IMG/VR virus record: IMGVR_UViG_3300009149_004527 | Span: 1-27,763 of that record | Source: a virus | Length of the DNA stretch: 27,763 nucleotides | Reading direction: 5' to 3' (one strand) | Part shown: piece by piece, positions 4,611-24,040 of the stretch | Position numbering within the stretch: the first letter of the stretch is position 1 | Layout: each line of letters starts with the position of its first letter | Notes under the pieces: model-generated | Database searches by the model: none | Seen by the model: the letters and a program-made list of their open reading frames with translations, nothing else | What the model was told of the DNA's origin: nothing | Program-made: the position numbers and the translations under genes

Positions 4611-4625
4611 TCAATTATTGTGTTT
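4611..4625 (-). promoter_or_regulatory. Candidate phage promoter motif, copy 1
   Basis: The minus strand reads AAACACAATAATTGA, identical over the core to copies at 18402, 21845 and (one mismatch) 24026. It sits in the 54-base gap between the 396-aa gene and the tandem metallopeptidases, pointing toward them. The following leader is AT-rich and contains the AAGGAG ribosome site. Conservation across four unrelated gene boundaries indicates a regulatory role; the promoter assignment is inference. Confidence 0.6.
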
Positions 4626-4630
4626 CTGCT

Positions 4631-5821
4631 TTATAGCCCTGTAACCTTATTTGCAATAGCATAATCACAAACTTTCCTAAAGAATCCGAACTCCATTACG
4701 GCTTCCAGGAGATTTCCGGACCTCTGTGTGTACCCAGCTGGGATGGTACCACCTGCTTCAAAGGCGACAGTATCATTGATTATTTGTGCTAGTGGAACTG
4801 CTGATGTAGATGGAGTGTACCCTGTACCTTGTCTAAAGCTGAAGAACTGAGCTACAGCTGCTTCAGCCTCAACTAAGTCTGATCCTGTATACCATGCAGC
4901 TAACCCATTAATAAAACTGGCTCCAGTGCCACCCTTATACACAGATATCCCTACCAAAGGCTTATACCTATTAAAGAAAGTATCAGACATATCTTCTTCT
5001 GGGTATGATGTCATTGATACATCATAACTACCAGACGTAAACGCGCTCTCAAACAAAAGGGAGAACATAGAGTTAACCTCATATGACTGATAATCTGGTT
5101 GTGCCAAGTTGAAGAATGGAGTCTTCTTTTGTACAGGAAACTCATCTGAGTTCTTTTGTAGATAGTAGTTCAGCTCTAGACTGACCACGTTATTATCCAT
5201 AACACAGTCCAGAGGTCTGAAGAAGAAAGTGTTTCTGATGTATTCATCAATCTTTGGGATGGCTTCTGTTATACTAAGCAATGGAATCCCAACAGTCTCA
5301 GCGTTTACAATGTCCAGGTAATCATTATAGATATATCTGTTTGAAACTACTGCCTCAAGATCTGCTATTTCATGATGTGCCGCAGTCAATTGTAACTTAA
5401 ATGCCGCTCTATTATTAGGCATTGTATAGTCCAGATTGATTGTTTCATATAGCAAGGTTTCCCCATTGAGGTTTGTGAACAAGACGTACTCTCCTAGTTT
5501 TGGCTCAAAGTAGGATGTCCTGGGAATAACTATGGTTGGACGGATAGACTCTACCCGGGTAGTTCCCTTCTCATTCCCAACAAGGGATGGAGGAGCACCT
5601 TCTCCAAAGAAGGTAGGTACCAGGGATATCTTATTGAACCGTCTTCCTGATAGCACCCCGATATCCTGGTAGGATGCCACATAGTTTTCATCCCATATAC
5701 TGTTAGGGATATCTAAGGAGTAGTATGTGCAAAATACCGCAGGAGGGCTTTTGCTGTATACATCATGAGTAAGGGTAATGAATTCTTCCAGGTATCCGTA
5801 ATAGTGTTTTACCAAACTCAT
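4631..5821 (-). CDS. Putative virion/tail protein of unknown function (396 aa)
   Basis: A soluble-looking protein rich in Y, F, N and P without signal peptide, membrane segment or catalytic motif that I recognise. The beta-rich composition and the place directly after the tape measure gene fit a tail or baseplate component. Its ATG shares one base with the tape measure stop codon (TAATG), implying translational coupling and similar timing of expression. It ends just before the promoter-like motif at 4611-4625 and so is the last gene of the tape-measure run. The C-terminal third, rich in G, A and S with AWYTGSDLVEAEAAV, looks like a structural domain. No specific T4 counterpart can be named by eye. 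Confidence 0.6.
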   Translation of the reverse strand: MSLVKHYYGYLEEFITLTHDVYSKSPPAVFCTYYSLDIPNSIWDENYVASYQDIGVLSGRRFNKISLVPTFFGEGAPPSLVGNEKGTTRVESIRPTIVIPRTSYFEPKLGEYVLFTNLNGETLLYETINLDYTMPNNRAAFKLQLTAAHHEIADLEAVVSNRYIYNDYLDIVNAETVGIPLLSITEAIPKIDEYIRNTFFFRPLDCVMDNNVVSLELNYYLQKNSDEFPVQKKTPFFNLAQPDYQSYEVNSMFSLLFESAFTSGSYDVSMTSYPEEDMSDTFFNRYKPLVGISVYKGGTGASFINGLAAWYTGSDLVEAEAAVAQFFSFRQGTGYTPSTSAVPLAQIINDTVAFEAGGTIPAGYTQRSGNLLEAVMEFGFFRKVCDYAIANKVTGL

Positions 5822-8800
5822 TAGCTTATTCCTTTCGCCAGCTGGACTAGAGTCATATCATAAGGTGTAATTGGCGTGTTATTTACGGTACTACTTGATG
5901 AGGAGCTAGTATTATTCGATGGTGAGTTTGTGTTAACAGATGTTATAGAAGTCATCACTTTCTTGAACTGACCATTCTGTACTCTAGCAGAATCCTCTTG
6001 TCTCTGCATAAGAGTTTCAGCTTCTTTCTTTCTCTTTGCATCTTCTGCAGCCTGTGCGGCCTCTCTTTCTTTATCAAAAGTTGGGAATTCCTTAACCTTT
6101 CCTTGGGAGGTTTCCATAAAGCCTGAAAGTGCTTCCTGTACCCCTGGCAGCTTATCTAATTGTAAAGTAGAGACCATCTTCTTAGCCATACCAAGTTCTG
6201 CACTAAGGACTTTCTTTATTGATGATGTCACACCCGGAACTGCTCCAAGAACAGAAGCATTCTTTTTAACCATCTGCACGAATGATCCAACCATCTTTGA
6301 CTGAAGAAGTTGCTGGATCTCAGGACTAGAGGATAATTCCCCTTTAAGACCACTAAAAAGTTTTCCGGCCAGTCTTCCCATTAAAGCACCAGCTGCACTC
6401 ATTGGTAGCACTTCAACATTTGTCTTAGGCATAACTATTTCAGGACCACGCTCACCTACCATAGAAACCTGATTAAGTGGTGGAATGCCTCCTATGGCAT
6501 AGCCTTTAACGCCACCAGAGCTACTACCAAAGCCACCTTCTTCTTCTTTTGCTTCGCCTAAAAACAATCTACCAAAATAATATTTACGTATACCGGAAGT
6601 AATCATATCCAGAAGCTTTCCAGGAAGATCCCTGAAGAATCCAACTACAGAATCCCAAACATTTCCAGCAGACTCCTTAAGAAATTCCCATATTCGTTTG
6701 GGAATCCCCATAATATTTTTCCAAATGTTCTCCATACCTACACTAAGGTAACTAAAGAAGTTACCAATACCCTTTACAATATCTGTCACTCCACCAATAA
6801 ATCCCTTTATTTTATTAAAGGCAGGCTTAATAAACTGCTTGTTAAACTTGGCAGCTTCTACCTTAACATCACCTAACCACTTCTTAAAGCCTTTCCACCA
6901 TATGCCACCAAGCCATTTAAGTGGAGTAAGGAGCCACGAAATAAGACCACCTATTAATTTTAATCCGCCCCAGACAATGCCAAGCCACATTTTTGTTGGT
7001 TTAAGCAGAAGTTTAACACCCTCCCATAGGGTTCCTACAATAGCTTTATCAAGTTCCCATATTAAGGACACTACTCCTTTTATCCCATCCCATATAGTTC
7101 CGATAAGATTTTTGATGGCATCTGTTGCTGGAGAGATGAGCTTAAAAAATCCACCTATGAAATCTGACATCTTCTTGAAAGGAGCTATGAGCATATCGTT
7201 AAGGGCTGTTCCGGCTTTTGTCATAGCATCACCTACCCAACCCATAAATCCAGAGATCTTTTGCATTATCCAAACAGTCCCTTCTAGGACTTTATTAATA
7301 GCACCAAACACTAATTTAAGCCCTCCCCATACCAGTATTACCATAGGAAGGATACCAGGTATCATAATAGTGATGAGTGGTTTCATAATAGCCTTAATAA
7401 TTTTCCATCCAGCCATTAGTGTATCCTTTATCAACACAAGGAAGGTTGATAGTACGTTTCCGACTAAGGCGACTGTTTTCTTAATTGAGGCTAGTGTGCC
7501 GTCAATAAGTTTCTGAACAGACTTTGGCATGTATTTTTTGAAGATAAGCCCTACGGCAACACCTACACCAACTACTACTAAAGCTATGAGAACTGCGGGA
7601 TTAAACAAGTTAAGCAATGTAAAGATGGCTGGCTGCAGAGTACCTGCCCAGAAGTTTGCACCCCATACCTGGATTCCTTCTATGGCATACATCAAAGACC
7701 CTTTTTGGTTCTTTGGTCCAAAAACGAACTTAAATCCTTTGACAACATACCCAATACCAGAAGCTAGGGCCCTTCCCCATTTCCCCCAATCATTTAGCCA
7801 TGCTTGAAGTTTGCCTAATGTTCCTAGCTTAACTGTATTCTCTGCAGTCTGTTCTGTTGCCTGAACTATCCTGTGCATGTCCATAGCTGCATCTGCTTTC
7901 CTACCTTCTTCTACAGATTCACTTGTAACTTCTTGAGCTGCTACATCTACTGCACCACTATTAGAAAGATCAACAGTAGGCGCATCTTTTGCAAAAGTCT
8001 GTAAGTAGTCTGGGCCTGGTACTCCAGCTAGGTTTTTATTAGTAGACGTTATTACCATATACTGGTCCCTAACAAAGTCCTTCATAGAGTCGATCATGCC
8101 ACTAATCCAGCCCTTCTGCCCTTCAGTTTGCTTTTTAGCCTCAGCAGTACCTTTTTCTATGGCGTTAGTTGTCTTATTAGCTTCAGCTTTCCGTACTTCC
8201 ACTGCTTTTGTGAACTCCTCTTTAAAAGTAGCAGTGGTGTTTTGTACTGCATCTGGGATAGTCTTAGCTACATTTAACACCTTTTCCATTAGAGAAGTAT
8301 CTTTACTGTTAGTATTTTCTGCCACCACAGCTGCTAGCTGTTGTCCATCGACCATAGCAGTCATACCAGGGCACATGCACTCTAGCAGCTTAGTCATAAT
8401 ATCAACCATTAATGTTGAGTTTTTAGCAATAAGTGTAATCTCTGGTGATTTAACACTGGTAGCCGCGCTTCCAAGCGCAATGGATAACCAGTCAATCTCA
8501 CCAGTCTCAACCTTCTTAAATAGGTCTTTCATACTAGCTCCAAGAGCCTTACCTGCTTGGTTAAACGCACCGCCAGCTATAGCCATAGACGCGCCCCACA
8601 AACCTTGGTCGCTTGCTCCTGGGATCTTCTTCTTTAATGTTTGGTAGATAGCCTCGGCTCCGCCCATAAAAACGTTACCAGCGTCTCGCATCCACTTAGT
8701 AGCCGCCTTACCGGCCTTAGAGTCCAAGAAGTCTTCATAAGTGTCTGCAGCCTTCTGCCAGTATGGTGTAATGACATCATTAACTTTGTCATGCATCTGC

Positions 8801-11211
8801 TTATACCCTTTGTATGCAACATCAACGCTTGCCACAAAAGAGTCAAACATGAACTCATATGCTGTTAAAAGTTTATCAGCCATGCTTTCATTTTCATCTG
8901 CCACAAATTCCCAAAACTTAAACGCATGGTCACCAATACCACCAAGGAATCCAGTAACTCCTCTATAATAAGGTTCCATCTTACCTGCAAAAGGATCCCA
9001 ATACTTCTTCTTAAAGTCTCCCCAGTCATTATTAAGTTCAGCTGTTTGTTCTTTTAGCTGTTCTCCAAGATTATTAAGAACACCTGAGAACGACTCTGTG
9101 TTAGCCTGTTTTAGCTTAAGAAGATCTTCTATGGTAGACCCAGCCATTCTTTCAAATAGTGCATCTGGGTTTGTTGCAATCTCCCAAAGAGCGCCCATTT
9201 TAGTCTTGCCTTCTTTTTGGGCCTGCTCAAGGGCTATCTTAATTCGTTGTCCTTCTGTTAAACCCTCTTGCATACTTTCAACAAGCTTCTTCTTAAAGTC
9301 CTCTAACTGCTCGACATCCATAGACTGAAGATCTTTAAGGTTCATAATAAATCCGTGCTCTACTGACTCCAGACCCTTAGCCCATAACTTAGCTAGCGGT
9401 CCACGCTGTTGTTGTAGAAGCTCTGCAATCTTTTCTTCTGTTTCAGTAGCATAGGTATCAGCAGAAAATGTTCCGACTTTCCCCTTTTTCTCAAGCCTTC
9501 TTCTTTCCCTGGCTTCTTTTATCTTATCTACAGTTTCTTTATCACCAGTTAGGATGGCCTTTCCATAAGAGAGAGACTCTTTTGCTCCAGCCACTTGTTT
9601 CTTTAGCCTACCCATGAAGGACTTATCAGGATCGTCTTTATTCTTCTTATATATCTTTTTGAGCCAGCCGACCACGCCACGCATACCTGCACTTATAGCA
9701 AAGATCCATGTAAAAGGGTTCAGCATCTTAATAATAGCCTTAGCAGCTAGTGTAAAAGGTAAGAACTTGAACTTGATGAATTTCTTCAGAGCAAACCCTA
9801 GGATGCCTAAAGGACCACCCATAACCGCATCCTTGAACTCAAGTAGGAACCCACCTGTATTCTTAGCAATCGTCTGTAACCCAGATCCTAAGATCTTTCT
9901 AGTCTTTATTAGGCCCGGTTTCATCTCTTCAAACTTGTCTTTAATTACCTGTCCTGTGTCTAGAGCCTTTTGCTTATAGTCCATGTGTAGAAGCTCGCTA
10001 CCCTTATCTTTCAGCTCTACAAACTTCTCACTAGCCAGAGCTGCACCTTTTGCAAGTAAGCCTCTATACTGAGCCGGCACGAATCGCATGGCTGCAGTAA
10101 ACATAGCTGCTCTCTTTCTAGGATCTTTTAGTGCGAATGCACCCCATACACCACCAACTATAAGGAGACCCCCTAGCGCTTTAATTAGCATTCCAACTAA
10201 AGATGCTATAAAACCACCAAATAGCTTTGGCCCCGCAAATACTGCAGAGAGTGAATTAGTTATCATACTAGTAGCGAACTTTCCAAGATTACCAAATAAT
10301 CCGCCGCTAGATTTCTCTTTTTGCTTATCTGACTTTTTAGAGTTCTTCTCTATAACTCTAAGGGATTTTAGTGTGCCGTACCCAATGTCAAACATCTCAT
10401 CGCCTTTCTTTCCAGAGAACATACTAAAAGGCGTGGTGAGTATATTTCCAAGCATGTTAGCCCCATATCTATAGAAGGCGCCAACCATACTTTTATATCC
10501 TTTAGTGAACATCTTCCATAGTGTTCCTACAGGGGATAGTGCTACGTTAAGAACCTGATAGGATCCTTTGAGTATCGGGTGAAGATTTATTAAGCCTGAG
10601 GCAATAGCCTCTAGTCTTTTTCCTGTTACGGTTTCTAGCGCAGTGCTAAATCCGCTACCAACTGATTTTCCATACTCTGTCATCTTCCCAGTTATCTGAT
10701 CAAGACGATAAGGTACTGCTCTAAGTAGGCCTTCAGCCATGGTATTTGCCTGAGAAGAGAGGTAACCACCGTGGTATGTTATTTCTGAACCAATCTCTTT
10801 GAGGTCCCTGCCTAGAGTACCACTAAGGTCAGATATGCTTTTTGTTGTAGCACCAGAAACTTTAACTATGGTTCTAGGTATAAACCCCATGTCCTTACTC
10901 ATAGATCTAGAGCACTTATAGCTTTCTTCAGCAGAGTCAGCTGCACTAGACATATCTATTGATACTTTAAGTAGTATGTTTTTAATATCTAAAATTTGTT
11001 TTTTAGTTTCTTTAGAAATAAGTGGAGAGTTTGCAAACTTAGTTATCGTGTTGTTTATTTCTGAGATTTCTTTATTAGTATACTTCGTTTTCTTAGCTAA
11101 CTCTTCTATACGATTCGCAGTCTGCTGGCCTATTTTCGCAGTTATCTCATTGCCTAAGCCATGGAGTATAGCTTGAAAATCATTTAGTTGTTCTTTTGTA
11201 AAACCGGCCAT
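5821..11211 (-). CDS. Tail tape measure protein (1796 aa)
   Basis: By far the longest gene. The protein is largely helical, with charged N-terminal heptad-like segments, several long hydrophobic stretches (for example around 325-355 and near 1200-1225, ALVVVGVGVAVGLIF), and many Trp/Gly-rich segments such as WGGLKLI. Near residue 1585 is GERGPEIVMP, within a YAIGGIPPL...GERGPEIVMP context that is a common C-terminal signature of tape measure proteins. The C-terminal tail is S/N/T-rich. No lysozyme or peptidase motif was seen. Tape measure proteins fill the tail tube, set tail length and pass into the host envelope. At the usual rule of about 1.5 A per residue this predicts a tail near 270 nm. 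The start is behind AGGAGAG, two bases after the previous stop. Confidence 0.9.
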   Translation of the reverse strand: MAGFTKEQLNDFQAILHGLGNEITAKIGQQTANRIEELAKKTKYTNKEISEINNTITKFANSPLISKETKKQILDIKNILLKVSIDMSSAADSAEESYKCSRSMSKDMGFIPRTIVKVSGATTKSISDLSGTLGRDLKEIGSEITYHGGYLSSQANTMAEGLLRAVPYRLDQITGKMTEYGKSVGSGFSTALETVTGKRLEAIASGLINLHPILKGSYQVLNVALSPVGTLWKMFTKGYKSMVGAFYRYGANMLGNILTTPFSMFSGKKGDEMFDIGYGTLKSLRVIEKNSKKSDKQKEKSSGGLFGNLGKFATSMITNSLSAVFAGPKLFGGFIASLVGMLIKALGGLLIVGGVWGAFALKDPRKRAAMFTAAMRFVPAQYRGLLAKGAALASEKFVELKDKGSELLHMDYKQKALDTGQVIKDKFEEMKPGLIKTRKILGSGLQTIAKNTGGFLLEFKDAVMGGPLGILGFALKKFIKFKFLPFTLAAKAIIKMLNPFTWIFAISAGMRGVVGWLKKIYKKNKDDPDKSFMGRLKKQVAGAKESLSYGKAILTGDKETVDKIKEARERRRLEKKGKVGTFSADTYATETEEKIAELLQQQRGPLAKLWAKGLESVEHGFIMNLKDLQSMDVEQLEDFKKKLVESMQEGLTEGQRIKIALEQAQKEGKTKMGALWEIATNPDALFERMAGSTIEDLLKLKQANTESFSGVLNNLGEQLKEQTAELNNDWGDFKKKYWDPFAGKMEPYYRGVTGFLGGIGDHAFKFWEFVADENESMADKLLTAYEFMFDSFVASVDVAYKGYKQMHDKVNDVITPYWQKAADTYEDFLDSKAGKAATKWMRDAGNVFMGGAEAIYQTLKKKIPGASDQGLWGASMAIAGGAFNQAGKALGASMKDLFKKVETGEIDWLSIALGSAATSVKSPEITLIAKNSTLMVDIMTKLLECMCPGMTAMVDGQQLAAVVAENTNSKDTSLMEKVLNVAKTIPDAVQNTTATFKEEFTKAVEVRKAEANKTTNAIEKGTAEAKKQTEGQKGWISGMIDSMKDFVRDQYMVITSTNKNLAGVPGPDYLQTFAKDAPTVDLSNSGAVDVAAQEVTSESVEEGRKADAAMDMHRIVQATEQTAENTVKLGTLGKLQAWLNDWGKWGRALASGIGYVVKGFKFVFGPKNQKGSLMYAIEGIQVWGANFWAGTLQPAIFTLLNLFNPAVLIALVVVGVGVAVGLIFKKYMPKSVQKLIDGTLASIKKTVALVGNVLSTFLVLIKDTLMAGWKIIKAIMKPLITIMIPGILPMVILVWGGLKLVFGAINKVLEGTVWIMQKISGFMGWVGDAMTKAGTALNDMLIAPFKKMSDFIGGFFKLISPATDAIKNLIGTIWDGIKGVVSLIWELDKAIVGTLWEGVKLLLKPTKMWLGIVWGGLKLIGGLISWLLTPLKWLGGIWWKGFKKWLGDVKVEAAKFNKQFIKPAFNKIKGFIGGVTDIVKGIGNFFSYLSVGMENIWKNIMGIPKRIWEFLKESAGNVWDSVVGFFRDLPGKLLDMITSGIRKYYFGRLFLGEAKEEEGGFGSSSGGVKGYAIGGIPPLNQVSMVGERGPEIVMPKTNVEVLPMSAAGALMGRLAGKLFSGLKGELSSSPEIQQLLQSKMVGSFVQMVKKNASVLGAVPGVTSSIKKVLSAELGMAKKMVSTLQLDKLPGVQEALSGFMETSQGKVKEFPTFDKEREAAQAAEDAKRKKEAETLMQRQEDSARVQNGQFKKVMTSITSVNTNSPSNNTSSSSSSTVNNTPITPYDMTLVQLAKGIS

Positions 11212-11212
11212 T

Positions 11213-12535: not shown

Positions 12536-12547
12536 TATAAAGCCCTC

Positions 12548-14284
12548 CTACTGTGGTTTAATCCTTTTAAGTAATTCTTGTAAATACTTAGGATCAAGAC
12601 CAGAAACCCTTTTCGGGTTTCCAAATTTATCTACATCTCCAGGAAGATTTTGAAATTCTTTCGGAATAGATGGGTCGACACCCTGTGTACTCTTGTTCAT
12701 GTTCCATATAGTAAGAATAGAGTCATTAGTTTGCTTCGTAACAACAGACCTTTGAGCAGGTATGTTACAGACCCTGTTTCGTATAACATAGGCTTGGGCC
12801 ATGGCTAAGACAGCATCATCGTTCTGAGTACTGCCACTTGAGACTTTCCCACCTTTTCCTGTAGTTAAGCTGCCAATCTCTTTTATAAGACGTGATGATC
12901 TAATACCATCTGGTCTCTCACTAATAACTGTGTACAGTTCTTCGAATAGTTGCTTTCTTGAAACAGGAGTAATTTTGTATCCCCATCTGGATCCACCAAT
13001 CTTATCCTGGTATAGCCTTCCTCTAAGCTTATTATTGTACGGTAGCTTTTCCTCAAGAGAGTTACCAACACCAGCACGCTCAAAGGAGATGATAGAATTC
13101 TGATACATGTCGGCTATCAGCTCTATCATCTGAACAAGGCAATAGTCTCCAGACAATGATTCTATCGGAAGCTTATCAATAAATTCAGCTACTTGGTCCA
13201 TTGACTCAAGGTCAATTACCTGGATAGCTGAGAAGTCTTTCCCGAATGCGGTAGCCACATCGACCGCAATAACATATTGTTTATCCATCATAGGCTCTTC
13301 CCATACCCAGATCTTCCCTTCTTTCCGGATAGGAACCTTACTTTGGAACTTAACTAGGGTGTCATCATCAAGCCAGGTATCCTCACCACCAATAAATGAG
13401 AGGTCATACTCCTGATGGAACTCCCTAATCCTAGATTTACCAAACTGACGTTTCTGTTCTTCATACCAGACTTCATCATAGAATGGTAGATCACTCCAAT
13501 GGATCTTAAATGACCTAAAAGAAGAACGTTTAAGTATGGTAGGATCTTTTTTAAGCTCAGCTTCTTCCCTGGCATCCTCTGCTTCAGTCCACATCTTAAA
13601 GAATCTTTCTCCAACATGAGTCTTTCCATTAGGAGTTGTTGTCAAAAATATACCATAAGGCATTCTCTTCTGTTCAGCTACAATAAAACGCTGAGCTGTA
13701 GTAGGAAGCAAGGCAGTAAGCAGTGGGCTCAGAGTCTTAAGGAATGCAGATTCGTCTATCCATACAATATGAGAACGAAGACCGCGACCCTTAGACTCTG
13801 GATTGGAGAGAACGGACTCAACAGCTATTGTTGATCCAGTCTCAACCACTGTCTTCTTAGTTGTCTGATTAGGCATTAAAGTAGGGCGTAGGAAATCTGG
13901 GAGATGCTCAAAGATAACTTCGATATCCACCATTTGTTCCTTAGCCTGTTCCTGTTTTCTAGAGATGAATGTTATAGATAGTCCTCTGTAGAACAACATA
14001 GCCCATGCACAAAAACAAACCATAAGGGTAGTCTTACCGGTCTGACGTGACCCTAGTATAAGAAGCTTATGCTCGTGTATCATTCTACGGCACATTTCTT
14101 TCTGCTTAGCAGCAAGTGCAAGTAGTTCGTATCCTGAGCCAGTATTTACAAAGCAGTAATTTTCTACAAAGTAAACAAAGTCAGACTTACATTTCCATAC
14201 CTCAAGCGCTTTCTCTTTGTCAGATAAGTCAGTAACCAGTATCCACTTTCCGTTAATACATACTTTATGATGTGATGGCGTCAT
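12548..14284 (-). CDS. terL: Terminase large subunit (DNA-packaging ATPase/nuclease)
   Basis: Both terminase domains are visible. The ATPase has Walker A GSRQTGKTT at 78-86, Walker B IVWIDE at 173-178 with catalytic E178, and coupling motif TTTPNG at 215-220. The RNase H-like nuclease has D342 in VIAVDVATAFGKD, E402 in ISFERAG and D489/D490 in NDDAVLAMA, so all three acidic metal-binding positions are present. At 578 aa it is close to T4 gp17 (610 aa) and lacks any obvious intein or insertion. It packages DNA through the portal into proheads and cuts the concatemer. The start is behind AGGAGA overlapping the end of the preceding gene. Its position between tail genes rather than beside portal is unusual, and no small terminase was recognised in the window. 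Confidence 0.95.
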   Translation of the reverse strand: MTPSHHKVCINGKWILVTDLSDKEKALEVWKCKSDFVYFVENYCFVNTGSGYELLALAAKQKEMCRRMIHEHKLLILGSRQTGKTTLMVCFCAWAMLFYRGLSITFISRKQEQAKEQMVDIEVIFEHLPDFLRPTLMPNQTTKKTVVETGSTIAVESVLSNPESKGRGLRSHIVWIDESAFLKTLSPLLTALLPTTAQRFIVAEQKRMPYGIFLTTTPNGKTHVGERFFKMWTEAEDAREEAELKKDPTILKRSSFRSFKIHWSDLPFYDEVWYEEQKRQFGKSRIREFHQEYDLSFIGGEDTWLDDDTLVKFQSKVPIRKEGKIWVWEEPMMDKQYVIAVDVATAFGKDFSAIQVIDLESMDQVAEFIDKLPIESLSGDYCLVQMIELIADMYQNSIISFERAGVGNSLEEKLPYNNKLRGRLYQDKIGGSRWGYKITPVSRKQLFEELYTVISERPDGIRSSRLIKEIGSLTTGKGGKVSSGSTQNDDAVLAMAQAYVIRNRVCNIPAQRSVVTKQTNDSILTIWNMNKSTQGVDPSIPKEFQNLPGDVDKFGNPKRVSGLDPKYLQELLKRIKPQ

Positions 14285-14286
14285 AC

Positions 14287-15675: not shown

Positions 15676-15918
15676 TTACTTCTTACCTCCACCCAGTGCT
15701 GACATCAAAGTTCCACCTGCCATAGGTAGAAACATAGAAGCCATTGCTTTCATCTTCTCAGCTTCAAGTTCCGACAGCCTTGTTACGGCTACACCCAAAT
15801 AGGTTACAGGCATTACAAAGATATCTGCATATGGGGCCTTTGAAAAGAACTGATACGTGGATATTGCTTCATCGATATCCTTAAGATACTTACCTGGTTT
15901 ATCACTCAAGAACCAGGC
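15676..15918 (-). CDS. Second-frame extension of the gp26-like gene, probably made by +1 frameshift (80 aa)
   Basis: This frame is open from about 15999 to the TAA at 15676, but its only early start is a TTG at 15999 with no ribosome site, deep inside the upstream gene. The coordinates given are the part expected after a +1 shift at 15919-15925: AWFLSDKPGK onward, 80 residues. It contains a hydrophobic/amphipathic stretch (YADIFVMPVTYLGVAVTRL) and ends SALGGGKK. A shift would fuse it to 246 residues of the gp26-like protein, giving 326 aa. It sits where gene 51 sits in T4, and the overlap resembles tail assembly chaperone pairs such as lambda G/GT. An independent start at TTG 15912, served weakly by the same GGAGG, is the alternative. 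Confidence 0.7.
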   Translation of the reverse strand, partial: AWFLSDKPGKYLKDIDEAISTYQFFSKAPYADIFVMPVTYLGVAVTRLSELEAEKMKAMASMFLPMAGGTLMSALGGGKK

Positions 15919-16657: not shown

Positions 16658-16689
16658 AAACGTAATCCTCCTTGGGAGATATTAATTAG

Positions 16690-16710
16690 GTGACCTCACT
16701 TTAAGGTCAC
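16690..16710 (-). repeat. Small inverted repeat between the 538-aa and gp26-like genes
   Basis: GTGACC and GGTCAC form a 6-bp perfect stem around a 9-base loop in the 72-base gap between genes. No U-run follows on the minus strand, so it is not a standard terminator. It might tune mRNA processing or readthrough; it may also be chance. Confidence 0.3.
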
Positions 16711-16729
16711 TAGTAACCAAACTTAAAGT

Positions 16730-18346
16730 TTACTGGATAGCCTGATTATTCTTTCCCCAGAACTCTTCACGCTCTTCCTTCTCTGGAAGAAAGTCCTCTG
16801 GGGACGTGTTAGCTATCGCTGGAAGGTACATCTTAGCTTCCATATGTGTCCTGTTAAGAAGAGCCCTTAAGGCTTTATATTCAGGACCCTTGATGCTTTC
16901 TTTTGTTATATCACGATCGTGGGTAAAATAAACAGTTGCATAGAAAGCAGCAAAGGCTGGAACAACCTTAAGTGCCATCCTACGCATAAGTTCTAATGGT
17001 CTATTATCCGGACCCTCATACACCTTAGAGCCAAGACCACCAAGTCCTTTCCACTTTACCAGAACGTCCAGCTTTTTCTTTTCTGGCTCATCCCTGTTAT
17101 CCTGTGGATCAGACAGGGTCTTACTTAACCCGTAAGTAATAAAGAAGTTCGTTACTCCACCAATACCGAAGGTAGCCTTTTCCTTAGGGTCCGCATCTAA
17201 CCACTTCTGTATTTGTTCCTGAACAAATGCTTTCGTATTAGAAGGCTTGTTAAACTCAGATCTTAGATTCCTTTCGGAAAGATCTTTGTTTACGGCCTGC
17301 TTTGTGACCTGGGAGAAGTAGGGAATGGCATCCCCTACCTTGTCCGCTAAGTTTAGCATCGAATTAAAAAAGACAGCGGTTAGTACGTTACCACCCATCT
17401 TTCCTGGCTTCTCTTCTGATAGTTCTAGAGCTTCTGGAGGAAGGCTAGTCACAGATGACATGTCAGCCGGAACTGCGTTCTTCCAGGAAGCTACAATATA
17501 TTGCTCAAATAGTCCGCTTATTAGTACAGACTCAGAGACTTTCGTAGATTCGTTGTCGACGATAGAAGGATCATACTTAATATTAAAGGAACTAGGATTA
17601 ACCTTAATCTGTGGAAGCAGCCTGTGCAGCATAGTGACAGTCAGCTCCATGCCCGATGTTACAGCAGAGACGTTTGGTCTTTGTATAAATCTTTCTGGGC
17701 TAGTATCAAAAATACGTCTGATCGTAATAGCATACAGGAGTAGCCTGGCTAGAAAAGGTAAGCCAATAATAATAAAGTTACTAAGGAAATTAATATCTTC
17801 ATTATCTGGATGAGTGTTTTCTACGTTAGTCAGAACCCACCCTGCAGGCACCCATTCTGCTCCAAGTCTTAGTTGCTTGAAGAACCTATTGACCCCACCA
17901 ACAACTTTAGCAGATATAATACTGCATGGCTCATCGCCACCACCCCTCGTTACCATCATACGTGCTAAGGCCTTCCTAACTCTGCTATTAATATCACCGG
18001 ACTGTGCATCAGCTACGGTACCAAACTGGGCAAAGAACTTATTTTTACTGGCGACGTCTCTTTCAATGTCTTTAACAAAGCTATGGACTCGCGCCGTATA
18101 TACCTTCTGAGCCTTACTATCTTTTGATATAGTGTTGACAACAGCAGGAATCTCTTTACGCATAAGAGCTATTAGCGCTGCTTGGATAAGAGCCAGTCCT
18201 TCCTTTGCTTCCGGATCTTTATCGTATTCCGCTAATTTATTTTTTATGGCAGCAGGCTGAGCTATGTACTTACTTCCTGTACGAGGCGCAATTGCATTAA
18301 TTGCGTAAGCACAAGCAGCATCCTCCATTAGGGAAGTCCAAAGCAT
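16730..18346 (-). CDS. Unknown 538-aa protein with membrane segments
   Basis: No family is recognised. The N-terminal 130 residues are helical and charged. A convincing hydrophobic segment lies at about 187-208 (FLSNFIIIGLPFLARLLLYAIT), and weaker ones near 340-355 and 455-470 (VVPAFAAFYATVYF). There is no HExxH, so it is not a fourth metallopeptidase. It follows the promoter-like motif at 18402-18416, 56 bases before its ATG, and has GGAGG at the start, so it probably leads the transcription unit that continues through the gp26-like gene, hub and terminase. It could be an injected inner virion protein or a membrane-remodelling protein; the sequence alone does not decide. Its neighbours (membrane metallopeptidase, speD) suggest an accessory island inside the structural cluster. 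Confidence 0.65.
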   Translation of the reverse strand: MLWTSLMEDAACAYAINAIAPRTGSKYIAQPAAIKNKLAEYDKDPEAKEGLALIQAALIALMRKEIPAVVNTISKDSKAQKVYTARVHSFVKDIERDVASKNKFFAQFGTVADAQSGDINSRVRKALARMMVTRGGGDEPCSIISAKVVGGVNRFFKQLRLGAEWVPAGWVLTNVENTHPDNEDINFLSNFIIIGLPFLARLLLYAITIRRIFDTSPERFIQRPNVSAVTSGMELTVTMLHRLLPQIKVNPSSFNIKYDPSIVDNESTKVSESVLISGLFEQYIVASWKNAVPADMSSVTSLPPEALELSEEKPGKMGGNVLTAVFFNSMLNLADKVGDAIPYFSQVTKQAVNKDLSERNLRSEFNKPSNTKAFVQEQIQKWLDADPKEKATFGIGGVTNFFITYGLSKTLSDPQDNRDEPEKKKLDVLVKWKGLGGLGSKVYEGPDNRPLELMRRMALKVVPAFAAFYATVYFTHDRDITKESIKGPEYKALRALLNRTHMEAKMYLPAIANTSPEDFLPEKEEREEFWGKNNQAIQ

Positions 18347-18401
18347 AAAAGTTCCTCCATATTATATGAAACTTATTTAGTGACTTGCTATTATAGCACG
18401 T

Positions 18402-18416
18402 TCAATTATTGTGTTT
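18402..18416 (-). promoter_or_regulatory. Candidate phage promoter motif, copy 2
   Basis: The minus strand reads AAACACAATAATTGA, followed by ACGTGCTATAATAGC. The motif contains the TAA stop of speD and so overlaps its last codons. It points to the 538-aa gene, whose ATG is 56 bases away. The adjacent TATAAT lies only 4 bases past TTGAAC, so it is not a normal sigma-70 pair. Confidence 0.6.
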
Positions 18417-18789
18417 GCACGAGGTGGGCTGAATCAGAGAAGTTGAAAGACTCCCCTCTTTGAAATAAAGTAGCCTCCGCTATAGTTCCGCCAAGACGCT
18501 TAGCTAGATGTTCTATAGCTTTTCCAGGGTCAGTGTGCTCACCACAAGTAAAGGCGTCCACACAAGCTATTCCCAATTCAGGCCATGTATGGATGGTAAT
18601 GTGGGATTCAGCAAGTACTGATACTCCAGTTACCCCAATAGGATCAAACTGGCGAGTGTACGTAAATAGTTCAGTAGCACCAGCAGCTACTACAGATTCC
18701 TGAAGCAGTTCTTTGATCTTATCCTTGTCATTAAGGATATCAAAGTTACACATAGTGATGTCAGCTACAACATGTCTTCCAAGTGCCAT
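18406..18789 (-). CDS. speD: S-adenosylmethionine decarboxylase proenzyme, SpeD class 1b (127 aa)
   Basis: SpeD makes decarboxylated AdoMet, the aminopropyl donor for spermidine synthesis. The proenzyme cleaves itself and converts a serine to the pyruvoyl cofactor. Here the cleavage motif LAESHITIHTWPE is intact, giving cleavage between E61 and S62, with catalytic H67 and C82 (in DAFTCGEH). These match Ser63, His68 and Cys83 of the Thermotoga maritima enzyme, as does the N-terminal LGRHVVADI. The length is normal for class 1b. It is downstream of a metallopeptidase gene with AAGGAG between them. No spermidine synthase or arginine/ornithine decarboxylase is in the window. Some phage SpeD homologues are reported to act on arginine or ornithine instead, so substrate is uncertain. 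The stop lies inside the promoter-like motif. Confidence 0.93.
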   Translation of the reverse strand: MALGRHVVADITMCNFDILNDKDKIKELLQESVVAAGATELFTYTRQFDPIGVTGVSVLAESHITIHTWPELGIACVDAFTCGEHTDPGKAIEHLAKRLGGTIAEATLFQRGESFNFSDSAHLVQTQ

Positions 18790-18805
18790 TGCATGAAGGT
18801 CTCCT

Positions 18806-19675
18806 TTATTTTAAACTTCTGAGTATCTGGACTGCATCCGGGTGGGTCTTAAACAAACGGTTAACTTCATTTATCATTTTCTGAAGCAGTTTTGTAAGAT
18901 CCCTGCTAGTGGTATCTTCTCTCGAGGAGCTTTGCATACTCTGGAGATAGCTCTTCAAAGGTTGTTCCTTAATCTTTATTGCTTGCTGATACGCAACCAT
19001 CTCTCCCCTTCGGGAAAAATATGAAACAGCAAGCATCTCAGCTATAGTGTAGGTCACCGCAATAACAACGATTAAAAGAAAAAGCATGTCTTTTTGCTTA
19101 TCACTAAGATTAGCTGAGGCGGCTTTCTTTTCTATAGTGCTGATCGCAAACTTAGTCAATAGATGCTTACCTGCTAATCCAATAATTGCAGGTAGTACTC
19201 TTCTAACATACGTAGTAACAGCTGACTCTCCACCAGTCATCAAATGACCGTACTCATGAAGAAGGATAGCTCTCTTAACATCGTCTTTAGCCAAACCAGT
19301 TTTCCTACTTTCCTTTTCTACTAGGCCATCAAGTTTATCAGAGTTTATAAAGATGACTCCCGGATGTCCTGGTGCGACAAACGCAGGAGGATCTTTCGGG
19401 TCTTTAACACTTCTAACAGCAATCGGTTGCATCCCAATCATGGCTTTAAGCTCATTGTCAAGGAATTCATTAATGGGGGCCTCATCTAGTCTTTTCCGTA
19501 CATAACGGATGTTATGCTCGTAGGATAAGGCGTAGCTAATACCAAGAGCTCCATATACGCCCTTCATTAAACGATCGAAGAAGGAGACGGCCTTGGTATG
19601 ACCTGACTCCATTAAGGCGTCTCTGATAGCGTATAGTGAAGCCAGCGTTGTGCTGACTTGGATCAGTTTAATCAT
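18806..19675 (-). CDS. M48-like zinc metallopeptidase, membrane-associated (third paralogue)
   Basis: HEYGH at 140-144 supplies two zinc histidines and catalytic Glu141. A Glu at 225 (SRRGEMVAYQ) follows a strong hydrophobic segment at about 197-220 and is the probable third ligand, as in M48 ExxAD although AD is replaced. The C-terminal LFKTHPDAVQILRSL (about 274-288) matches the M48 THP...R..L element. VIFINSDKLDGL at about 107-118 fits the strand and helix before the active site. The spacing and membrane-segment layout resemble HtpX, but the N-terminal NAFxxPG motif is not clear. It is only about 37 bases after the terminator following the capsid gene, and precedes speD. The target is unknown. 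Confidence 0.78.
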   Translation of the reverse strand: MIKLIQVSTTLASLYAIRDALMESGHTKAVSFFDRLMKGVYGALGISYALSYEHNIRYVRKRLDEAPINEFLDNELKAMIGMQPIAVRSVKDPKDPPAFVAPGHPGVIFINSDKLDGLVEKESRKTGLAKDDVKRAILLHEYGHLMTGGESAVTTYVRRVLPAIIGLAGKHLLTKFAISTIEKKAASANLSDKQKDMLFLLIVVIAVTYTIAEMLAVSYFSRRGEMVAYQQAIKIKEQPLKSYLQSMQSSSREDTTSRDLTKLLQKMINEVNRLFKTHPDAVQILRSLK

Positions 19676-19711
19676 GCTTATCCCCTTGTATAGTCAAACT
19701 AAAATGTTAAC

Positions 19712-19742
19712 AAAAAAAGGGCCTCGGTCGAAACCGAGACCC
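19712..19742 (-). terminator. Intrinsic terminator after the major capsid gene
   Basis: On the minus strand GGGTCTCGGT, loop TTCG and ACCGAGGCCC form a 10-bp stem with one G-T pair, followed by seven T. It is 33 bases past the capsid stop codon. The plus strand has only four T after the stem, so its main direction is that of the capsid gene. Confidence 0.93.
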
Positions 19743-19774
19743 TTTTATAGTCGTTACGCCAAGCGTCGTTAAGG

Positions 19775-21217
19775 TTAGACCCTAACAACGTTAAGGAGAG
19801 CCATACCCTTAGGTCTGACAACTGCCTTGGCATAGCGAGTCATCAGTGTCATGGCAGGCATGCTGCCAAGTGGGAATGGGTAGATGGTTACTGGAATGTA
19901 TGGGCAGTAGAAGTATACTGCTGCTCTTTCTTCAGCTGGTTTGAGCATCATCAGCATTTTGCCTGCAGGCATAACTGGAGTTACGATTATTCTCCATTTA
20001 CCAGCTTCCAGAGTACCCACTCTATAAGTGTGTTCTGTTCCGGAATAGCCGTCGCCTACATACTGGTAGCGGTTCATGGACTCAAGGATCGAAGCTTCCA
20101 GTGGGTTACAGATAACGATGTTGGCCGGTGCGATGTTTGTGTCAGTGTAAATAGTCTGGCTTAGATCGTTCATCTTAGGGATGATGTTCTCATACCAAGC
20201 TTTTTCACCGAGGGCGAAACCGAATGGTACGTTTTTGTTGAAAGTGTCGATTGCTGTTGGATGCAGGAACTGCACTGTGCTAAGAAGCTCAGTGAGGATT
20301 TCCTTATCGATTTCTACAGCGATCTGGTTACTCATGATGGACACGAGCTCAGCCTGGGCATCAAGGTTGAACAGAGCTTTAGTATCCTGTTCAAACTCTA
20401 CTGACCAATGGGCACTAAGCTTTCTGGTCTGAGCTTCGAATAGGATCTTTTCTGTTTTGAACTCAATGCTGGTATTGATTGTGTTCTGCTCGAGAGACAC
20501 AATTGCGTAGATGTCTACGGACACAGTACCGGCTGCTGGGTTGGCAACACTAAGGTTGACAAGACCATTTCTGAAGTCAACACTACCCTGGATAACATCG
20601 GTTAGACCGGATGTTGGGTATGTTACTGATCCAGAGAAATTACCATCAATGTCGTTCTCGATAGCGATGTCAATGGAATCAACACCATCAGTTGCTTTTA
20701 CGATTCTGAAGTTCCTGGAAACGGATGCCACTGAAGGATCCAGTGAAAGTGTTCCAAGAAGATCGTAACCAATCTGAGGTACTGCTACAGTTGAAGTCAC
20801 AGGAACCTGAGGACCCTGAGACACGTTCTGGTTGTATTCAGGAAGTTCATATGATTTGTCATCATATGTTTTTGCGTAAGGTCTGATGAAGTACCTTACT
20901 GCAGACGGGCTGTTCATTGGGGAAATAGTTACTGCTTCTTTTACGGAAAGGCGTGGCCAGAACTTTCTGAGAAGTGGAAGCACAAGAACTGCATATGGGT
21001 TGTATCCAAAAATGGAGTTCTCAAGCAGGTTCTCACGAGTGTTGTTGGCAAGCTGCAGGAACTGTTTCTTTGTAGGATCATCAAGACCCTCAGCTAATCC
21101 ATTGATATATGTTTCGAAAAGATATGGCTCAGTCACGATGCGCTGCATCTCTGTGACCATATTTACACCATGCTCTTTGTCAAGCCTGGTTCTGGTTTCT
21201 AAAAGAATTTCCTTCAT
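19775..21217 (-). CDS. Major capsid protein, T4 gp23-like
   Basis: At 480 aa it is near T4 gp23 (521 aa). It lies downstream of portal, prohead protease and candidate scaffold genes, in the T4 order 20-21-22-23. Residues 1-66 are helical and charged, as expected for a removable delta region. The middle holds typical HK97-fold strands, and the C-terminal segment FYCPYIPVTIYPFPLG then LMTRYAKAV.RP.G resembles the gp23 C-terminal TRYG element. NLLE (63-66) before NSIFGYNP is a good candidate for prohead protease cleavage, since T4 gp21 cuts after (L/I)xE and gp23 is cut after E65. The start has AGGAGG. The strong terminator behind it suits a very highly expressed gene. Confidence 0.9.
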   Translation of the reverse strand: MKEILLETRTRLDKEHGVNMVTEMQRIVTEPYLFETYINGLAEGLDDPTKKQFLQLANNTRENLLENSIFGYNPYAVLVLPLLRKFWPRLSVKEAVTISPMNSPSAVRYFIRPYAKTYDDKSYELPEYNQNVSQGPQVPVTSTVAVPQIGYDLLGTLSLDPSVASVSRNFRIVKATDGVDSIDIAIENDIDGNFSGSVTYPTSGLTDVIQGSVDFRNGLVNLSVANPAAGTVSVDIYAIVSLEQNTINTSIEFKTEKILFEAQTRKLSAHWSVEFEQDTKALFNLDAQAELVSIMSNQIAVEIDKEILTELLSTVQFLHPTAIDTFNKNVPFGFALGEKAWYENIIPKMNDLSQTIYTDTNIAPANIVICNPLEASILESMNRYQYVGDGYSGTEHTYRVGTLEAGKWRIIVTPVMPAGKMLMMLKPAEERAAVYFYCPYIPVTIYPFPLGSMPAMTLMTRYAKAVVRPKGMALLNVVRV

Positions 21218-21274
21218 TTGTTACATTCCTCCTGTATTGAATGTTCTAGCTTAAGAATTTTACTTAGCTTTATA

Positions 21275-21556
21275 CTATGACTGGTTCGTCAGCTCTTCAG
21301 CCTGATCATGTTCTATTGACGTTTTAGCTTCACTCAATCTTCGTTCTTTTTTTGCTATCAACGCTTCTAACATAACCTTGTGCTTGTTAAGCCTGACCAA
21401 AGAAGACCGTTTCTTTAAGATGGCGTTTTCGAGTTTTTCAATCTTTTCTTTCTTCTCTCGTGCGTCCTGCGCCACTTCTTCAAGAACAGTTTTCACTAGT
21501 TTCTCGTTTAAAGTTACATCGTACTGAGTTTTCTTAACGAATGGGATGACTTTCAT
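21275..21556 (-). CDS. Small coiled-coil protein before the capsid gene (93 aa)
   Basis: A highly charged protein. Residues 12-80 form an almost unbroken K/E/L-rich predicted coiled coil (KEKIEKLENAILKK, ALIAKKERRLSEAK). It has no signal peptide or cysteines. Its ATGA overlaps the stop of the preceding small gene, so the two are translationally coupled. The place just upstream of the capsid gene and the helical nature would fit a scaffold, capsid-assembly chaperone or short core protein. That is inference from context; no family is recognised. Confidence 0.75.
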   Translation of the reverse strand: MKVIPFVKKTQYDVTLNEKLVKTVLEEVAQDAREKKEKIEKLENAILKKRSSLVRLNKHKVMLEALIAKKERRLSEAKTSIEHDQAEELTNQS

Positions 21557-21810
21557 GAGACCTTCCCAACTGTACTCAGGTACTGTTCCGCTTCTGTATC
21601 ATATTGGTCACACAGCTGTTGCATCTCTTGTATTTCATTCTTCACTCGCTGCAAGCTGTTTGTAATCTTTGTGTTTGAACTACGAAGACTCTGTAGTTTC
21701 CGTCTGTGTCCTTTATTGGCACCTTTGATTATCTTCTCTTTTATTTTGTTGATCATTTCTACATCAAGAATGATCTCTGGTTCTCTTTGCATAAAACCAC
21801 GAATTTCCAT
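21553..21810 (-). CDS. Small coiled-coil protein, first gene after promoter motif (85 aa)
   Basis: I place the start at the ATG at 21810 (MEIRGFMQREPE), which has GGAGG with 8-base spacing at 21819-21823. A longer frame from a TTG at 21825 would put the SD inside the coding region and is unlikely. Residues 20-80 are helical and charged, with heptad-like IKEKI, LQSLRSS and VKNEIQEMQQL, consistent with a coiled coil. It overlaps the next gene by ATGA. Only about 35 bases separate its start from promoter-like motif copy 3, so it leads the capsid transcription unit. The function is unknown; a scaffold or capsid chaperone is plausible. Confidence 0.75.
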   Translation of the reverse strand: MEIRGFMQREPEIILDVEMINKIKEKIIKGANKGHRRKLQSLRSSNTKITNSLQRVKNEIQEMQQLCDQYDTEAEQYLSTVGKVS

Positions 21811-21844
21811 TAAGTATTCCTCCAAAGGAAAGTAACACTACCTT

Positions 21845-21859
21845 TCAATTATTGTGTTA
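21845..21859 (-). promoter_or_regulatory. Candidate phage promoter motif, copy 3
   Basis: The minus strand reads TAACACAATAATTGA, identical to copies 1 and 2 except for its first base. It begins the unit of two coiled-coil genes and the major capsid gene, the genes expected to be most strongly expressed late. The leader to the ATG is about 35 bases. Confidence 0.65.
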
Positions 21860-21899
21860 GAACGAAACCTACCGAAGTGGTTGTCTAGGAATGAAACCT
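21860..21899 (-). repeat. Imperfect direct repeat upstream of promoter motif copy 3
   Basis: GAACGAAACCT at 21860-21870 and GAATGAAACCT at 21889-21899 (plus-strand reading) share 10 of 11 bases at 29-base spacing, just upstream of the promoter-like motif. They might be an activator site; chance is possible. Confidence 0.3.
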
Positions 21900-21900
21900 C

Positions 21901-21927
21901 AAGCGCTACATTAGAAACGTAGCGCTT
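21901..21927 (-). other. Strong stem-loop in the 139-bp gap before the capsid unit
   Basis: AAGCGCTAC and GTAGCGCTT form a 9-bp perfect stem, extendable by two pairs, with a 5- to 9-base loop. No T-run follows on either strand, so it is not a classical intrinsic terminator. It could protect or process the 3' end of the upstream mRNA, slow polymerase, or act as a protein site. The flanking gap codes for nothing evident. Confidence 0.65.
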
Positions 21928-21964
21928 CAGATATCATACAACATGTTCTGATACAACGTAATTA

Positions 21965-23107
21965 TTATATACTAGCCCAGCGGCCAAGGATCTCATTTGC
22001 CTTAGGCACAGAGATGAGCTGACTAGTCATTTCGTTTATTGCTTCTGAAACCCGATACAGCTCTTTTCCTGTCTTATCTTGAATAAGAAGGGTGATAGTG
22101 CCTCTGCTCTTATCACAGATTATCAAAATTAGGTTGTCTTCCATAAGACGCATTTGCTTTTTCATCTCTTTAGAAAAGATGGATATAGCTTTTGTTCCAA
22201 TATCAGTTGCTTCCGTCTTTGCGGCGTCATCATAGATAACAACAGAGTCTCCAACAGGGATATTTTTGTTATTGTAGCCACTTGCACTAACTTGTCCATT
22301 TCCTTGACCCTCTCTCATATCAAAAGAAAGAACGATCTTATCTACCCCTCCTTTCTTTGACAAGGTGTTAACAACAGCTATGCATCTAGCAGCAAGCTCC
22401 CTTTCTGTCCCTGCTTTCCAGTCTCCGTATGTTCTATGTTCAGGTACTTCTGGTTCTATCATCCCTGGAACAGGAAGACGTTCTTCAAGTACATCTTCAA
22501 ATAGGGGGCTGGCTGAGATCATTACTGTCTTGCCCTTCCCATCAGTTGCTCTCCAGGAGAATGCACATGAGGTCTTACTAGACTCCTGTGCCCCATCTTG
22601 GCCTTCTTTCAGGAAAGTAGGGCCAGCATCTTTAATAAACACATCCTTACCATCCCTTGCTCTTACCTTGTCGCCCTGTCCAGCAACTCCATGGCTTCTT
22701 GAGTTCTTCTCAAGCCACCTAAGTCCAAGAGTAGCTATTGCTACCTGGTAAGGTGTAGAGAACCTGCAAACAAGCTCGGAGCTTCCATCAGGAAGAACCC
22801 TGGCTACACCCATGTCTAATACTTCTTTTACATAAGAGGCATTAACTGTTGGTTCTTTAGCCTTACCTCTGTATCCTGACTGAGGCAGCCATTCTGGGAA
22901 GTCCTTAAGGAAACTAGCATCTATCCTTGGGGCTAAAGACTCATCACCTCTAGATAGCACACCTATGATATCACCAAAACTCATTTCATCCAGTATGTCA
23001 CTTTTTTCTGCATAGAAGCGTACACCCAGAACTTTTGCTCTACGTGGATCAGTGGATCCTACAAACGAAGCCATCTGTTCCTTTGTTTTTTCAACGTTTG
23101 TTGCCAT
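21965..23107 (-). CDS. Unknown 380-aa protein in the scaffold (gp22) position
   Basis: It lies between the protease and capsid genes, where T4 has its scaffold gene 22, but it does not look like a coiled-coil scaffold. Residues 1-120 hold FGDIIGVLSRGDESLAP-type and Trp-containing globular sequence. The middle is G/D/K-rich, and the C-terminal third (about 270-370) is strand-rich (KIVLSFDMREG, NLILIICDKSRGTITLLIQD). No catalytic motif or membrane segment is evident. The stop is TAG; the start has GGAGG-like TGGAGGATAC. Candidate roles are capsid decoration, vertex or internal head protein. No family was recognised. Confidence 0.65.
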   Translation of the reverse strand: MATNVEKTKEQMASFVGSTDPRRAKVLGVRFYAEKSDILDEMSFGDIIGVLSRGDESLAPRIDASFLKDFPEWLPQSGYRGKAKEPTVNASYVKEVLDMGVARVLPDGSSELVCRFSTPYQVAIATLGLRWLEKNSRSHGVAGQGDKVRARDGKDVFIKDAGPTFLKEGQDGAQESSKTSCAFSWRATDGKGKTVMISASPLFEDVLEERLPVPGMIEPEVPEHRTYGDWKAGTERELAARCIAVVNTLSKKGGVDKIVLSFDMREGQGNGQVSASGYNNKNIPVGDSVVIYDDAAKTEATDIGTKAISIFSKEMKKQMRLMEDNLILIICDKSRGTITLLIQDKTGKELYRVSEAINEMTSQLISVPKANEILGRWASI

Positions 23108-23123
23108 TGTATCCTCCAGTAAC

Positions 23124-23807
23124 TTATAAAAGGTTTAACATTTTGTAAGCACAGTCTCTTACCTCTGCTTCGATATAGCGTTCGATAAGGGGAGTAAGTG
23201 TCTTACTTTCAGCTAGGTACTTTTCTTTAACACAATTAGTTGCTTCTTCTAGTACTTCTTCAACAAACGCAGATTCATTAGAAGGGTTGATAACAGCGTC
23301 ATATGTTACAAACTTGAATGGTTCGGTAACATAAGACACGTCATTCTGAACTGCAACTCTTCCAGTGGACCTTAAGGAGAAACCAATACCCATTCTTCTT
23401 CTAATAAAAGAAGCTAATGTGTATCCCCAAGTTGTAGGAGTGGTCTCTATGACGGCTCTGATAACTCCATGGCCCGGGTCCTTATCAATCCATAGTTTAT
23501 TAAAGCAATGAGAAGCGTTCTGCATGCGTACAGCCATGATTCGGTGTACTGGAGAGTCAGCGTCCGGATGGTCCGCTTCACCAAATAACCTTCGTTTGGA
23601 GATTTGAGGCTGAGCAAGTTGGATGTGCCTGTCCATCAGCTCTGTAGGATAAATCCTGCGGTTAGCGTTCATGACATCGCACACCTGCATAACGGCACGA
23701 CAGATGACACTATTGTCACTCTTTAGTTTTTCAATTGTAAGATCACTCTCGCAAAGAGTGGTAAGGTCATACATTGCGTAAAAGCCGTTCTTGTTCACGC
23801 GTCTCAT
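23124..23807 (-). CDS. Prohead core protease, T4 gp21-like (serine protease)
   Basis: This is the maturation protease that cleaves scaffold and capsid proteins inside the prohead. NANRRIYP at about 47-54 matches the common N.N.R.YP element, GEADHP at 76-81 carries the catalytic histidine H80, and GIGFSLRSTGRV at about 140-151 has the catalytic serine S144, in the order and spacing of gp21-type (U9/S78-like) prohead proteases. At 227 aa it is near T4 gp21 (212 aa). The start has GGGAGGTAATAAC before ATG. It follows a 62-aa gene and precedes the unknown scaffold-slot protein. The expected cleavage specificity is after (L/I)xE, and candidate sites occur in the capsid protein. Confidence 0.92.
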   Translation of the reverse strand: MRRVNKNGFYAMYDLTTLCESDLTIEKLKSDNSVICRAVMQVCDVMNANRRIYPTELMDRHIQLAQPQISKRRLFGEADHPDADSPVHRIMAVRMQNASHCFNKLWIDKDPGHGVIRAVIETTPTTWGYTLASFIRRRMGIGFSLRSTGRVAVQNDVSYVTEPFKFVTYDAVINPSNESAFVEEVLEEATNCVKEKYLAESKTLTPLIERYIEAEVRDCAYKMLNLL

Positions 23808-23811
23808 GTTA

Positions 23812-24000
23812 TTACCTCCCGGGGTGCTTGTTTGCTTGTTCCCAGAGCATCAGTGCCTCTAGAACATTTTTCTGTGAATAGGTAAAGAATCCAGGCCCAT
23901 GCCCGCTTTGTTCAAAATCATTCCATTTAACGAGCAAAGTGATCTGCTCATGAATTTTCCTAACGAAAATAGGTCTTCCTGGTTTTGGTCCTACTGCCAT
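23812..24000 (-). CDS. Small unknown protein (62 aa)
   Basis: A well-spaced GGAGG ribosome site and a position 26 bases after promoter-like motif copy 4 make this a credible gene despite its length. It is basic and aromatic (KIHEQITLLVKWNDFEQSGHG), with no cysteine pairs, membrane segment or recognised motif. Its stop is 4 bases before the protease start. In T4 a small gene, 68, lies between 67 and 21 and belongs to the prohead core; the place is similar, but there is no visible sequence likeness. Confidence 0.75.
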   Translation of the reverse strand: MAVGPKPGRPIFVRKIHEQITLLVKWNDFEQSGHGPGFFTYSQKNVLEALMLWEQANKHPGR

Positions 24001-24025
24001 AATTCCTCCAATGTATAGTTACGTA

Positions 24026-24040
24026 TCATTTATTGTGTTT
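24026..24040 (-). promoter_or_regulatory. Candidate phage promoter motif, copy 4
   Basis: The minus strand reads AAACACAATAAATGA, one mismatch from the other copies. It contains the TAA stop of the acidic 223-aa gene and lies 26 bases before the 62-aa gene ATG. It would drive the 62-aa, protease and 380-aa genes. Confidence 0.6.

Follow-up and report, generated by a model that had tools for sequence, protein, structure and literature searches.

Four copies of a 15-base motif lie on the minus strand of IMGVR_UViG_3300009149_004527, a viral contig of 27,763 bases with linear ends and no taxonomy (hereafter "the window," meaning this whole stretch). We propose that it probably serves as a late promoter in an uncultured jumbo phage and is recognized by a non-virion RNA polymerase (nvRNAP) that the phage encodes, together with a specificity subunit of the type of AR9 gp226. 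A start switch for a phage polymerase is the most likely reading because in a close relative of the window the signal recurs at matching gene boundaries, and that relative also has RNA polymerase (RNAP) genes and the gene for such a subunit. The initial annotation of the window had suggested a phage-specific promoter, with a hint of an AR9-like polymerase, and the relative largely supports this, the promoter function itself being what we infer.

A repeated motif at gene boundaries

The minus strand is the coding strand of every recognized gene in the window. Rescanning it recovered all four copies listed in the initial annotation, with zero, zero, one, and one mismatches. Copies 1 (4611..4625) and 2 (18402..18416) are exact (AAACACAATAATTGA), copy 3 (21845..21859; TAACACAATAATTGA) has T at base 1, and copy 4 (24026..24040; AAACACAATAAATGA) has A at base 12. 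Their placement at gene boundaries, roughly 25 to 60 bases before a start codon, also held. Copy 1 lies between g4631-5821 and an M48 peptidase gene (3506..4576, minus strand; Pfam M48), 35 nt before its ATG at 4576. Copy 2 overlaps the stop codon of speD and precedes the ATG (18346) of g16730-18346 (16730..18346, minus strand; orthologue in the close relative, E=1e-9) by 56 nt. Copy 3 is 35 nt before the ATG at 21810, which is the start supported by a Shine-Dalgarno sequence (GGAGG), rather than the mechanically called TTG at 21825; g21275 and the major capsid protein gene follow this small gene (21553-21810). Copy 4 overlaps the stop of g24030-24701 and is 26 nt before the ATG at 24000.

Copies 2 and 4 each overlap the 3' end of the gene before them by 11 nt, TAA stop included, which is why the two upstream proteins both end in ...QTQ. 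Because copies 1 and 3 are wholly noncoding and the conservation continues beyond the stop codon, the motif is one of DNA and not of protein.

When up to three mismatches are allowed, the number of copies is unremarkable (four found vs. 1.6 expected; five of 100 shuffles reach four). At one mismatch, when the coding strand was dinucleotide-shuffled 40 times, the largest family of 15-mers had at most two members in 35 shuffles and three in the other five. The real coding strand has a single four-member family, which is this motif, and no shuffle reaches four. The motif sites score 22.5–23.9 bits, and the next best site anywhere in the window scores 10.7 bits. Noncoding DNA amounts to 2% of the window, yet all four copies touch it (p ~4e-7 under random placement), and none lies inside coding sequence alone. 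Each has the form AACA-N7-TG.

The motif and RNA polymerase genes in a close relative

Relatives of the window were not easily found. A scan of viral contigs for the exact motif followed by GGAG returned 45 loci, none related and at chance level; single-protein scans with the terminase, capsid, and portal gave nothing usable, the portal alignment search returned only ordinary T4-like phages, and the speD scan only unrelated loci. There was no relative of the window among genome contigs. An alignment of two M48 paralogues of the window led to the first relatives, G001 (IMGVR_UViG_3300028886_000031; 321,650 bp) and G002 (IMGVR_UViG_3300005910_000004; 141,546 bp). G001 shares the window's capsid protein (37% identity, E=1e-101), terminase, portal, and protease, among others. 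An alignment of the window and G001 capsids then identified G003 (IMGVR_UViG_3300009149_000023; 73,096 bp), which has the same gene order as the window and similar proteins (capsid 72%, protease 67%, terminase 51%, and portal 45% identity). A final capsid scan produced no further close relative.

G003 carries AAACACAAYAATTR with at most one mismatch in seven places, vs. 0.2 expected: 16735 (minus strand), 19753, 32998, 42776, 49908, 53011, and 65115. The enrichment before genes that the initial annotation had proposed as a check is thus present, as all seven of these near-perfect copies are intergenic and precede a start codon on the same strand. Three are at syntenic boundaries. Site 65115, after the g4631 orthologue, corresponds to window copy 1; site 53011, before the g16730 orthologue, to copy 2; and site 49908, before the g21553 orthologue, to copy 3. 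For the 62-aa gene downstream from copy 4, no orthologue was detected in G003. A further copy, with two mismatches, is upstream of the G003 speD. An unseeded k-mer enrichment analysis of G003 gave AAACACAACA as the top signal (five regions vs. 0).

The consensus over the 12 sites of the window and G003 is AAACACAAYAATTRR. AACACA and a later AA are invariant in all 12, 11 have T just before the putative start, and every site has A or G at the start position. The form AACA-N7-T(A/G) is found in 11 of the 12.

Genes for a phage RNAP, which the initial annotation had recommended looking for, are present in G003. Its multisubunit RNAP genes encode beta' (21696-24569) and beta (24579-28430), and a gene at 8247-9611 on the minus strand (L197) encodes a protein of 454 aa homologous to AR9 gp226 (phmmer E=7.5e-10). 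The sole match of this protein in the PDB is AR9 gp226 (7s01, 7um0, 7um1; E=3.6e-7), and it also matches PHROG 25005, "RNA polymerase." Homologues are encoded by G001 (L157, 6573-8003, minus strand) and G002 (L176, 13290-14720, minus strand) as well, and a profile of the three matches AR9 gp226 in the PDB at E=1.5e-8. G001 and G002 each have two complete beta'/beta pairs, the genes of each pair lying side by side (G001: L155-L171, 48567-55970 and 83950-90243; G002: L176-L183, 19310-26512 and 105057-112254). The subunits of these pairs are unsplit, unlike those of AR9 and phiKZ, which occur in split halves. The multisubunit-RNAP-encoding Caudovirales (mReC), a group of metagenomic jumbo phages (PMC7481178), have beta and beta' genes whose length would fit unsplit subunits, and the window's relatives match that description; the mReC report itself does not mention promoters.

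The capsid protein places the window in the RNAP-encoding clade. In a capsid tree of 18 rows, the window, G003, G001, and other contigs group with the AR9 group, apart from T4-like phages (support 100/100), and the contigs of the window's capsid clade are mostly RNAP-bearing (four of five contigs checked). Earlier trees that did not include the relatives were less clear and put the window between AR9-like and T4-like phages on long branches. AR9-group phages are the best isolate matches for both the capsid and portal proteins of the window, and the order of its capsid and M48 genes is that of AR9 gp116-gp117, with gp117 likewise Pfam M48.

Comparison with known late promoters

The late promoters of AR9 have the consensus AACA-(6N)-T(A/G), in which the purine is the start (PMC5312081), and the phage polymerase, together with gp226, reads UUGU on their template strand (PMC9209446). 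We counted AACA-N6-TR in upstream regions as a positive control and found clear excesses in AR9 (12 vs. 2.4 expected), LPJP1 (eight vs. 2.0), and BpSp (11 vs. 1.6); T4-like contigs show no such excess in their upstream regions. The window motif resembles the AR9 (PBS1) late promoters in its AACA element, its fixed spacer followed by T and a purine, and its position at gene boundaries upstream of virion genes, and the window's relatives encode a gp226 homologue. The late promoters of phiKZ, which have TATG at the start and are used by an nvRNAP with gp68 (PMC7598289), are likewise late promoters of a jumbo phage with two polymerases. However, a TATG overlapping the start is absent from the window motif; the window has no detectable capsid or portal similarity to phiKZ.

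On this reading, the phage belongs to a clade that encodes its own multisubunit RNAPs, and the motif would act like an AR9 late promoter. The nvRNAP would be guided to it by the gp226-type subunit, which would read the AACA element on the template strand as TTGT (UUGU in AR9). Transcription would begin at the conserved purine, which lies past the 7-base spacer and the T, 12 bases on from the first A of AACA, so that each copy of the motif would open a unit of head or tail genes.

The gp226 homologues differ from AR9 gp226 at valine 206, the residue needed to reject thymine (PMC9209446). In our alignment, five AR9-group phages have V in this column, whereas G003 has P and both G001 and G002 have F. 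As the uracil-selecting valine is not conserved, AR9-type recognition may exist in thymine DNA. The substitutions suggest that the G003/G001/G002 lineage does not use the uracil test of AR9 in the same form, which by itself does not tell the base used in its own DNA. The uracil-DNA-glycosylase inhibitor of AR9 has no match in the relatives, a weak negative given that these are mostly fragments.

Several observations weigh against an AR9-like late promoter. The initial annotation had recognized an AACA-N6-TW form; the AACA stands, but the published consensus ends in T(A/G), not TW, and with a spacer of 7 in place of 6 the motif fails the strict AR9 consensus (at a spacer of 6, the pair in the window reads TT or AT). 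The conserved core is 13 bases, as opposed to AACA plus TR in AR9, and the motif is also far more strongly conserved than that of AR9. A block of this size exceeds what the AR9 nvRNAP needs, and its length is nearer to that of the AT-rich promoters that virion RNA polymerases (vRNAPs) use in this group. The window motif contains AATAAT, which resembles a −10 box, although this is mostly AACAAT in G003. The window fragment, at 27,763 bases, has no RNAP gene, and the beta/beta' pair of G003 more closely resembles G001's virion-type pair; the non-virion pair would lie off the 73-kb fragment. In addition, the motif of the window and G003 is at chance level in the more distant RNAP-bearing relatives G004, G006, and G007.

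Alternative explanations

The AATAAT is the basis of one alternative, in which host RNAP, redirected by a phage sigma factor of the T4 gp55 type or guided by a host sigma, would use AATAAT or AATAAA as a −10 element and start 6–7 bases downstream. AATAAT matches TATAAT at five of six positions, inspection of the window copies places a G 6–7 bases after it, and the window's head genes are of T4 type; like T4 late promoters (TATAAATA, gp55), the motif is upstream of such genes and leaves a short 5' leader. We nevertheless regard this as unlikely. The third base of the box in G003 is C in five of eight sites and A in one, and this AACAAT-like box weakens a sigma-type −10 reading; moreover, copy 4 loses the last T. 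The initial annotation's statement that the motif is unlike either sigma-70 or T4 late promoters holds, in that promoter scans of the minus strand found no −35/−10 hexamers at the motif sites, including no −35 element, and the window's coding strand contains zero copies of TATAAATA. The relatives have a polymerase of their own, and T4 gp55 has no phmmer match in six of them, mostly fragments.

Use by the virion polymerase, as an early promoter of the kind found in phiKZ- and AR9-like phages with long AT-rich conserved boxes, appears less probable still. The length and conservation of the box do resemble vRNAP promoters (PMC7598289), and the polymerase pair on the G003 fragment is the virion-like one. 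On the other hand, the genes that follow the copies are of head, tail, and other virion types, a class that is late in AR9. The sequence also has no alternating TATATAT block like that of AR9 early promoters, and a separate signal in G001 (CTATATATA) fits the early role. An element acting in the RNA leader, such as a processing site or a translational control, would explain why the motif sits between a stop codon and a Shine-Dalgarno sequence, and small inverted repeats do follow some copies. We consider it the least plausible option, and a hairpin or RNA element was rejected, because the leaders after the motif copies fold no better than shuffled sequences (z of +0.03, −0.8, −0.7, and +1.0). 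Hairpins downstream show no conservation among copies or among phages, and copy 3 comes just after a strong 12-bp hairpin (21898..21930, minus strand; fold z = −3.7, without a long T run) that is possibly the end of the preceding transcription unit. A late promoter for the phage nvRNAP thus remains, in our view, the better account of the motif.

Boundary motifs in more distant relatives

Other motifs occur at gene boundaries in the more distant relatives. G001 and G002 show AAYA-N6-AA before genes, with a GAAYAAA core (21 vs. 1.2 and 13 vs. 1.1 expected, respectively). Direct homology of this motif with that of the window was considered in three alignments and rejected. The window sites do not score highly against the G001 matrix, and therefore we claim only a common architecture (AAYA and a fixed spacer). 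In the upstream regions of G001, CTATATATA is also enriched before genes (10 vs. 1.0) and is a candidate early promoter of the virion polymerase. In G004 (IMGVR_UViG_3300026488_000036; L210-L211, 31133-37263, plus strand), TATAAATAAT occurs seven times before small genes, followed by a CCAAAA-like block; its letters are T4-late-like, in a phage that bears RNAP. In G006 (IMGVR_UViG_3300005573_000071; L201-L205, 89234-92879, plus strand), TTCGTAACAATGTTTGTGTAATTGTA is repeated upstream of genes.

One tentative scenario, which we think could be right without favoring it, is that a wide clade of RNAP-encoding phages inherited AACA-type promoter recognition on the template strand, by a gp226-like subunit, from its common ancestor, and that this recognition works on normal thymine DNA. 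The uracil requirement associated with V206 in AR9 would then be a later specialization, and the spacer would have shifted between lineages (6 in AR9, G001, and G002; 7 here).

Other features of the window

The gene content of the window includes the portal, head protease, major capsid protein, terminase, tape measure, baseplate-type genes, speD, and three M48 peptidases. The major capsid protein gene (19775..21217, minus strand; PHROG 20655, E=9e-50) belongs to the unit that copy 3 would start. Directly downstream from it is an M48 metallopeptidase gene (18806..19675, minus strand; Pfam M48), followed by speD, encoding S-adenosylmethionine decarboxylase (18406..18789, minus strand; PF02675, E=2.5e-33), whose 3' end holds part of copy 2. 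Overall, the three M48 genes of the head and tail region lie within 2373-4576 and 18806-19675. The terminase large subunit gene is at 12548..14284 (minus strand; PF03237, PHROG 2; G003 orthologue E=1e-175), and the portal gene, upstream of copy 4, is at 24705..26849 (minus strand; PHROG 213; best isolate matches AR9/PBS1).

A strong intrinsic terminator, with a 14-bp stem and a T run, is found downstream from the major capsid gene (19715..19746, minus strand; fold z = −4.6). Just after it is a candidate fifth site, AACATTTTAGTTTGA (19694..19708, minus strand), of the form AACA-N8-TG. It is weak and off-spacing, and could be due to chance; possibly it is a divergent promoter for the M48-speD unit. 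A 15-bp tandem repeat occupies 27663-27763, where the right end of the contig breaks.

Implications

The class of promoter to which we assign the motif, the late promoter of a phage nvRNAP, is already known from AR9 and phiKZ. The novelty lies in the lineage, in a spacer of 7 bases, in the length of the conserved core, and in the lack of the residue that selects uracil. Our literature searches turned up no account of promoters in metagenomic phages of this kind, although this does not prove that there is none. A late-type promoter of an uncultured lineage can be read from sequence and linked to a protein homologous to the AR9 specificity subunit, whose structure has been solved. A promoter and polymerase pair outside the AR9 group bears on whether template-strand recognition needs uracil, and the motif offers a means of mapping the transcription units of jumbo phages known from metagenomes.

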